A stretch of DNA of 64,000 nucleotides from Rhizosphaericola mali (GTDB lineage Bacteria; Bacteroidota; Bacteroidia; Chitinophagales; Chitinophagaceae), in contig NZ_CP044016.1 of assembly GCF_004337365.2 (NCBI RefSeq), positions 2,976,001 to 3,040,000 of the forward strand, given 5' to 3'. How positions within the stretch are numbered: the first letter of the stretch is position 1; every line of letters begins with the position of its first letter. A model generated the notes under the pieces. That model saw only the letters and a list, made by a program, of their open reading frames with translations. It did not search any database and had not been told where the DNA came from. A program made the translations under genes and the position numbers. Shown here piece after piece: positions 11,678 to 15,502 of this stretch.

Positions 11678-12095
11678 ATGAAAACTATTAATATAATCCT
11701 TATCTTCTTATCGCTTATAACTTTCAGCCAAAGTCAAGCACAGACAAAGGAAGAAACTGTAAAATGGCTGACGGAAAAGATGATGCAACCATCTTTTTGG
11801 CTTGAAAGCAGCCATAGACAGGAAAAAATGCTATTACGAAGATTATAGCAGTCAAATAGTTTACAGTATTGATGAAAATGATCTGAACAGTCAACATAAG
11901 TATAGTGGTGCTGCATCAGCAAGTGTCCAAGACAAAAAAGGGAATACAAGAACACTAAATGTAACTACATCTTGTAATTCTTTGGAGGTTCCTAACGCAA
12001 AAGAGTCATTTTTGATTAAACTCGAAAAAGAAATGAGGTTCGGAGATGAAAAACTAATTTCTCCTATCAATTACAATATAGAAACGTGCAACTAA
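11678..12095 (+). pseudogene. Frameshifted exported protein gene
   Basis: From the ATG at 11678 the frame encodes a signal peptide (MKTINIILIFLSLITFSQSQAQ) and KEETVKWLTEKMMQPSF, then hits TAG at 11846. The downstream reading (LKAAIDRKKCYYEDYSSQIVY..., ending at 12095) is in another frame. Removing one T from the T5 run at 11794-11798 joins them into one protein of about 138 residues. The KEETV-(K/E) start of the mature part matches that of the intact gene at 14960, so the two are probably paralogues. Either a real mutation or a homopolymer sequencing error would explain it. Confidence 0.7.
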
Positions 12096-14270: not shown

Positions 14271-14309
14271 CCCTCCTTTTTAGCAGGTGCTTTTTGCTAA
14301 AAAGGAGGG
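14271..14309 (+). terminator. 15-bp perfect hairpin after the SUMF1-fold gene
   Basis: Arms CCCTCCTTTTTAGCA (14271-14285) and TGCTAAAAAGGAGGG (14295-14309) pair perfectly around a 9-nt loop, 16 bp after the stop. There is no T tract after it, so it may be a transcript-end stabiliser or a relic of acquisition rather than a classical terminator. Confidence 0.55.
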
Positions 14310-14440
14310 AGGGACGACCAACAATTTAAATTCAAAACAATATAGAGTTAATCCATTTGTAAGCCTTTCATTTAGGTTTGACAAGAATCCTTTAATAAAA
14401 GCACTGAATAAGACTTCCATTCAACCTCAAAATCGATAAG

Positions 14441-14839
14441 ATGAAAAAATTAGTAATAACACTGCTCACAATATTCCTAGGGTTAGGAATATTGTGAGCA
14501 CAGATTAAAGATTCTCTAAATGCAAACTTTGAAAATCCGAATATTGAAAATAATAAAATCTCTGTAGGAAATACATTAAGAATTGAGGCAAATCTCAATG
14601 CTTCATGGGGTGGTGTTAGTGGCTGTGCCACTGCACCTACGCCAAAACAAAATATTGAAAAAACTGCAAACCAATGGATTAAAGATCAAATATTTGAAAA
14701 TCGAACACTAAAATGGATTAGATACGGATGGAATATTCCAGTCATTAATTACAATTATTGGAAAGAGGACTTTCCTAGCAATAGGAGGCATTGTAGAGGA
14801 AAGGCCCAATTCAAAATATTTATAGAATTTGAAAAATAG
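14441..14839 (+). pseudogene. Exported protein gene interrupted by an in-frame TGA
   Basis: From the ATG at 14441 the frame reads a signal peptide (MKKLVITLLTIFLGLGIL), a TGA at 14495-14497, then AQIKDSLNANF and continues open for another 114 codons to TAG at 14837. The AQ right after the stop is exactly what is expected at the signal-peptidase site, so the TGA replaces a residue (TGG Trp is one change away). The downstream part is Trp/Asn-rich (TANQWIKDQIFENRT, KWIRYGWNIPV). No family recognised. The TGA lies inside a perfect hairpin (see 14463-14500). Confidence 0.65.
14463..14500. repeat. Perfect 17-bp inverted repeat with 4-nt loop
   Basis: TGCTCACAATATTCCTA (14463-14479) and its exact reverse complement (14484-14500) flank the loop GGGT. 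The repeat lies wholly in the signal-peptide coding part of the interrupted gene, and its right arm contains the premature TGA. Confidence 0.85.
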
Positions 14840-14892
14840 CACTCCTCCCTTCAATGTATTTCAAAAGAAAAACAAATAACTAATCACAATAA

Positions 14893-14918
14893 AAATCCGC
14901 TCCATTAGGAGCGGATTT
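14893..14918 (+). terminator. 11-bp perfect hairpin
   Basis: AAATCCGCTCC and GGAGCGGATTT pair perfectly around ATTA, 53 bp after the interrupted gene and 41 bp before the next start codon. Likely separates the two transcription units; no strong T tract follows. Confidence 0.55.
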
Positions 14919-14959: not shown

Positions 14960-15502
14960 ATGAAAAAGTTATTAACAGCTTTATGCATGATATTTCTAAC
15001 CATAATCACCGCTCAACAATCTCATTCTCAGATCAAGCTTTCTAAAGAAGAAACAGTCGAATATATCAATAAAATCCTCTCTATTTCATTAGGTAAATAT
15101 AAATCGGATCCTAATGAAAGCTTCTGGGCTATAGAAGAACAATCTTTTTCTTTGGATAAAGTTGCTATAACTAAACAAGTTTATGCCAAAGATTCTGATA
15201 ATGGAGGATGGAGAAAGTCATGTAAATTCACCGATAATATTTCTCAGATACCTTGGGAGACGCTACAAAGTGTAAGCATTGATACTACGCTTAAATTTGA
15301 ATTAGGTCTAATTAATCTTTTGTTCAAAACATCCTCTCGTGAGGAGCTAATCACAGATTGCCATATGAAGGAATTTGATGGAACAAAAATTTATACTCCT
15401 AAAGAAATTAGCTTGTATGTTACAAAAGATAAAGCAGAAAATGTAAAAAAAGCATTTCTGCACTTAAAAGAACTGATGTATAAAAAAGATCCTTTTGAGT
15501 AG
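14960..15502 (+). CDS. Exported protein of unknown function
   Basis: A 180-residue protein with a signal peptide (MKKLLTALCMIFLTIITAQQSHSQ). The mature part begins KLSKEETVEYINKILS, like the frameshifted gene at 11678, and contains GGWRKSCKFTDNISQIPWETLQSV. Two Cys could form a disulfide. The C-terminal third is helical and Lys-rich (KDKAENVKKAFLHLKEL). No family recognised. It is the last gene of the accessory block before uvrC. Confidence 0.65.
   Translation: MKKLLTALCMIFLTIITAQQSHSQIKLSKEETVEYINKILSISLGKYKSDPNESFWAIEEQSFSLDKVAITKQVYAKDSDNGGWRKSCKFTDNISQIPWETLQSVSIDTTLKFELGLINLLFKTSSREELITDCHMKEFDGTKIYTPKEISLYVTKDKAENVKKAFLHLKELMYKKDPFE

Follow-up and report, generated by a model that had tools for sequence, protein, structure and literature searches.

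Quasipalindrome template-switch mutations are established in E. coli (PMC7202029), in yeast genes the process has produced inverted repeats with perfect arms of 11 and 16 bp (PMC8604942), and template switching is reported to create and to maintain RNA stems (PMC8794818). The locus described here shares with these mutations, as known from the thyA hotspot and lacZ reporters of E. coli and from coding genes of yeast, a short-loop inverted repeat with perfect arms and a change located within coding sequence; it differs in that the end state alone is visible, the homologue searches having yielded no sequence that shows the state before the change. Literature searches on template switching and palindromes brought up nothing recognisable as concerning this particular gene, which says little. 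A second point of reference is the signal peptidase site of Bacteroidetes, given as Ala-Gln under the Q-rule (PMC5837995, PMC10653852). Like the Q-rule substrates of signal peptidase I, the gene under study has a signal peptide followed by Ala-Gln, but here a stop codon immediately precedes that dipeptide. Finally, the hairpin resembles the intergenic terminator-like hairpins of the same genome in its long perfect stem and short loop, and differs from them in lying inside a coding frame without a T run behind it on the + strand. In a terminator scan it qualifies as terminator-like solely when read on the - strand; the scan gave 2 such sites in the region, where shuffles predict 0.9.

The features of the locus, numbered within the window (the whole stretch of 64,000 nucleotides that was analysed), are the following.

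14441 to 14494, + strand: Sec-type signal peptide MKKLVITLLTIFLGLGIL, start and 18 codons; past the preceding stop at 14405, the frame contains no ATG other than the one at 14441.
14463 to 14479, + strand: left arm of the inverted repeat, 17/17 complementary.
14480 to 14483, + strand: 4-nt loop GGGT between the arms.
14484 to 14500, + strand: right arm of the inverted repeat, 17/17 complementary, containing the stop codon.
14495 to 14497, + strand: premature in-frame TGA, from the translation.
14498 to 14839, + strand: frame after the stop, with the Ala-Gln signal-peptidase site, 113 codons and then TAG; putative orphan mature protein P0001, with gene-like codon score and no in-frame ATG, GTG, TTG or CTG.

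These positions agree with the initial annotation, whose coordinates and description (ATG at 14441, TGA at 14495-14497, open frame to 14839, perfect 17-bp repeat) were correct. The translation resumes directly after the TGA as AQIKDS... and closes at the TAG at 14837-14839. Read by eye, the N-terminus exhibits a positively charged start, a hydrophobic core and the Ala-Gln site, as required of a Sec/SPI signal peptide under the Q-rule.

Several properties of the frame past the TGA bear on whether it is a gene. Its codon log-odds of 0.042 exceeds that of 99.7% of 610 wrong-frame segments, and 19% of 122 true gene segments score lower. When the bases of the region were shuffled 20000 times, the 113 codons did not once remain open throughout. 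Furthermore, ATG, GTG, TTG and CTG are all absent in frame from these codons, while at least one ATG, GTG or TTG occurs in 44 of 45 gene segments of the same length (taken from 17 window genes); consequently, the downstream frame is unlikely to start independently. Its first two residues are Ala-Gln: in a crude scan of a genome sample, Ala/Gly-Gln occupied the cleavage position in 136 of 309 hydrophobic N-termini, compared with 64 of 13951 dipeptides in protein interiors. TGA itself is a rare stop here, terminating 2 of the 47 window genes and 64 of 874 sample ORFs of at least 150 aa. It is very likely that the downstream frame is part of a gene, and since this gene-like frame lacks its own start and begins with Ala-Gln, the locus is read as one signal-peptide gene split by a nonsense codon. 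We regard a genuine broken gene as highly probable. The signal-peptide gene stopped by a TGA that the initial annotation had proposed is thereby well supported by codon statistics, by the absent downstream start codon and by the Ala-Gln directly past the stop.

The same observations weigh on the idea that the gene makes no more than its 18-residue hydrophobic peptide, for instance as a small membrane peptide, and that the downstream frame is incidental. The peptide has a length and hydrophobicity that we take to be like those of type I toxins, and a strong hairpin overlaps its frame. Against this stand the gene-like codon usage of the downstream frame, its missing start and the Q-rule site at its beginning; in addition, the region 14300-14900 has no second copy in the genome except for the hairpin's own opposite strand. 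A peptide product is accordingly given a very small chance.

Homologue searches with the 113-residue frame returned nothing convincing in 59 relatives, in 394 family genomes, in 396 order genomes or in 395 phylum genomes; these draws overlap, and each contains the genome itself, which matches itself. The family search gave 13 weak places in 12 other genomes, at E values from 0.0025 to 0.05, and at one of them (L006) the ORF shows no signal peptide by eye. The phylum search gave one match at E 7e-4, which lies in the wrong frame of a longer gene. No homologue was found in genome_contigs, viral contigs, phages or plasmids, collections that may omit records very near this genome. Pfam and NCBIfam hold no family for the downstream frame, and the PDB no sequence match to it under E 0.4. 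A single-sequence structure model reached a mean pLDDT of 57.5; Foldseek retrieved nothing for it with E under 0.001, and a second structural look, whose best Z of 6.0 was to a ribosomal protein, was judged uninformative. As far as these searches reach, the downstream protein appears to be an orphan. In another genome of the genus, the contig stops about 1.2 kb past tpiA, too soon for synteny to be traced, and a uvrC query gave a partial match only, with 42% over the first 100 residues. The initial annotation had proposed that a downstream frame lacking any homologue would not be a broken gene; this rule fails, because the coding evidence is independent of homology.

The hairpin itself is well beyond what composition would produce. 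It is the third longest perfect one in the window, where 10 perfect stems reach 11 bp or more when loops of 3-12 are allowed, and the longest perfect stem in 10 first-order Markov simulations of the window did not exceed 12 bp. From base composition and 8 loop lengths, perfect hairpins of at least 17 bp are expected 0.00014 times per window and 0.01 times per genome. The stem ends at 17 bp, the next two positions beyond it being unpaired. A count over 464 kb of the genome gave 53 perfect hairpins with stems of 12 bp or more, 3 of which lie within called ORFs of at least 80 aa. Long hairpins are numerous in real genomes, and those of this genome are mostly intergenic. The hairpin under study was itself scored as intergenic in this survey, because the interrupted ORF is too short for calling.

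A perfect hairpin enclosing a TGA could also be a functional element governing readthrough or recoding of a two-part gene. The intact downstream frame is compatible with such a role, as is the folding of the RNA from 14400 to 14560, which is strong for its composition (z = -3.25, with none of 200 shuffles as stable); this strong fold is what a perfect 17-bp stem gives. The geometry, by contrast, is unfavourable: the stem covers the TGA and otherwise precedes it, and a bacterial SECIS lies downstream of its TGA. Moreover, the selA model (TIGR00474) matches nowhere in the genome, which by this measure lacks selenocysteine synthase; in the control, the model matched in 4 of 14 genomes and above cut-off in 1. 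An Rfam scan gave 5 matches at E up to 1 with none above cut-off, the one overlapping the hairpin (C0719) scoring 18.4 bits against a cut-off of 50. Apart from the two arms at this locus, the arm sequence recurs at one other place in the genome, with 2 mismatches, which is the frequency of a control pattern and not the several copies of a dispersed palindromic (REP-like) repeat. No positive evidence thus emerged for the initial annotation's alternative of a hairpin controlling readthrough, and we consider a functional element very improbable.

A second perfect hairpin, of 15 bp with a 9-nt loop, was observed at 14271-14309, in the interval that separates the broken gene from the FGE-sulfatase-like gene. 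It is not followed by a T run on the + strand; 14 nt of its arm, compared with the loci sampled, recurred nowhere else.

Returning to the broken gene and to how the stop arose, comparison of the arms places all three bases of the TGA at 14495-14497 in pairs within the 17/17 stem. Consequently, a single change must have introduced the stop and completed or generated the stem, unless the left arm was altered afterwards. In the mechanism favoured here, the two arms would at first have matched imperfectly; while the region was being replicated, the growing strand would have switched to the other arm as template and copied it, and the same event would have perfected the hairpin and written the stop. 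A small secreted-protein gene would in this way have lost its function to a nonsense codon where the signal peptide ends, and the event would be recent, as the remaining frame is still open, so that its present output would be at most the 18-residue hydrophobic peptide. Such a history would not require any function of the hairpin. On balance, we favour quasipalindrome template switching as the origin of the broken gene. At this locus, nature offers a compact case of a nonsense codon falling, base for base, within a perfect hairpin; it would add one more instance to a mutational process already described, leaving the picture of that process unchanged.

Hairpins inside ORFs were surveyed in the window and in 60 genome segments, each 20 kb long, together 1.264 Mb or about a quarter of the genome, comprising 1007 ORFs of at least 100 aa and loops of 3-10, with the expectation taken from 8 codon shuffles; the gene under study, being interrupted, lies outside the 1007-ORF set. 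For 14-bp arms, 4 perfect hairpins were found against a shuffle mean of 0.12 (maximum 1), while those with one mismatch (4 vs 4.4) and two mismatches (41 vs 46.8) were not in excess. At 12 bp, the corresponding counts were 6 vs 1.1 for perfect arms, 42 vs 35.6 for one mismatch and 459 vs 401.5 for two mismatches, the last above all 8 shuffles (maximum 436). At 16 bp, they were 1 vs 0, 2 vs 0.25 and 10 vs 5.4, respectively. The excess is greatest for perfect stems, as conversion of imperfect palindromes would give, and a milder near-perfect excess is present at 12 and 16 bp.

Inspection of the individual cases moderates the 14-bp result. Two cases are clear: a perfect 14-bp hairpin just past the lipobox of a glycosidase-like lipoprotein gene (L027:18287-18321) and a perfect 17-bp hairpin in an open glycosyltransferase gene (L037:10073-10111). 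For the latter gene, 294 family genomes, its own being one of them, contained a single relative within an E limit of 1e-30, and at 38% identity it is too distant to reveal an imperfect arm. In a third case (L025:17152-18031, - strand), the two domains of an NYN/OST-HTH gene are separated by a perfect 14-bp hairpin, and the gene itself is broken into two frames; one of the four 14-bp hairpins (L062) lies upstream of the likely true start. Taking into account that the L062 hairpin probably precedes its true start and that the L025 gene is already split, the counts are small and the 14-bp excess rests on two or three cases. The survey hints that perfect in-gene hairpins are made here by converting imperfect ones, as in E. 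coli and yeast. The template-switch repair invoked by the initial annotation is supported only indirectly, by the excess of perfect 14-bp hairpins in ORFs with no near-perfect excess at that length and by precedent. The ancestral TGG codon that accompanied the proposal is not supported: the residue it implies stands before Ala/Gly-Gln in only 1 of the 136 such N-termini of the genome sample.

The stop could alternatively have arisen by an ordinary point mutation in a hairpin that was nearly perfect earlier or was perfected for another reason. The coding evidence for a broken gene fits this equally well, and the sequence would look identical had an ordinary point mutation occurred or had the left arm changed afterwards. 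The cluster also offers a parallel in the gene at 11678-12095, which is split: by a manual count along the translation, one frame is open over 11678-11848 and the next over 11784-12095. Its break has no perfect close hairpin, the flanking 17-nt arms being only 76% complementary and 78 nt apart; thus, ordinary mutations also seem to contribute to the decay of the cluster. The full pairing of the TGA is the difficulty for this explanation, as it needs either chance completion of the stem or a subsequent change in the left arm. A point mutation is therefore judged rather unlikely, and template switching is retained as the preferred origin.

Both readings assume that the stop is real. Hairpins can disturb sequencing, and a sequencing or assembly error within the stem would leave the gene intact in the organism; the two other split genes, at 11678-12095 and the NYN gene of L025, reflect either real decay or base-call errors. 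Weak evidence to the contrary comes from the assembly, a 4.70 Mb genome in 2 contigs with completeness rated 99.71%, and, again weakly, from the dependence of the stop on base identity within the stem and not on run length. An error is considered improbable. If the stop is real, the hairpin might further be imagined as a hot spot at which arm-to-arm template switching turns the gene off and possibly on again. The stop codon would then be one state of a secreted protein whose phase switches slowly and without a recombinase; this extension is highly speculative.

The gene at 11678-12095 is a second small secreted-protein gene of the cluster with a broken frame. Its 3' part exhibits 38% identity over 89 residues to a 155-aa protein of Chitinophagaceae bacterium UBA4857, a metagenome-assembled genome. 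That 155-aa protein adjoins a relative of the gene at 14960-15502, the next after the gene under study; this relative, weak but full-length and 28% identical, is the only one in 294 family genomes, occurring in 1 genome besides its own. Kinship of the downstream protein with a two-repeat secreted protein of the UBA4857 cluster was considered and rejected, neither BLASTP nor profile comparison relating the two. The neighbours of the stop-bearing gene are thus small genes for secreted proteins that have few relatives, and at least one of these neighbours looks broken as well.
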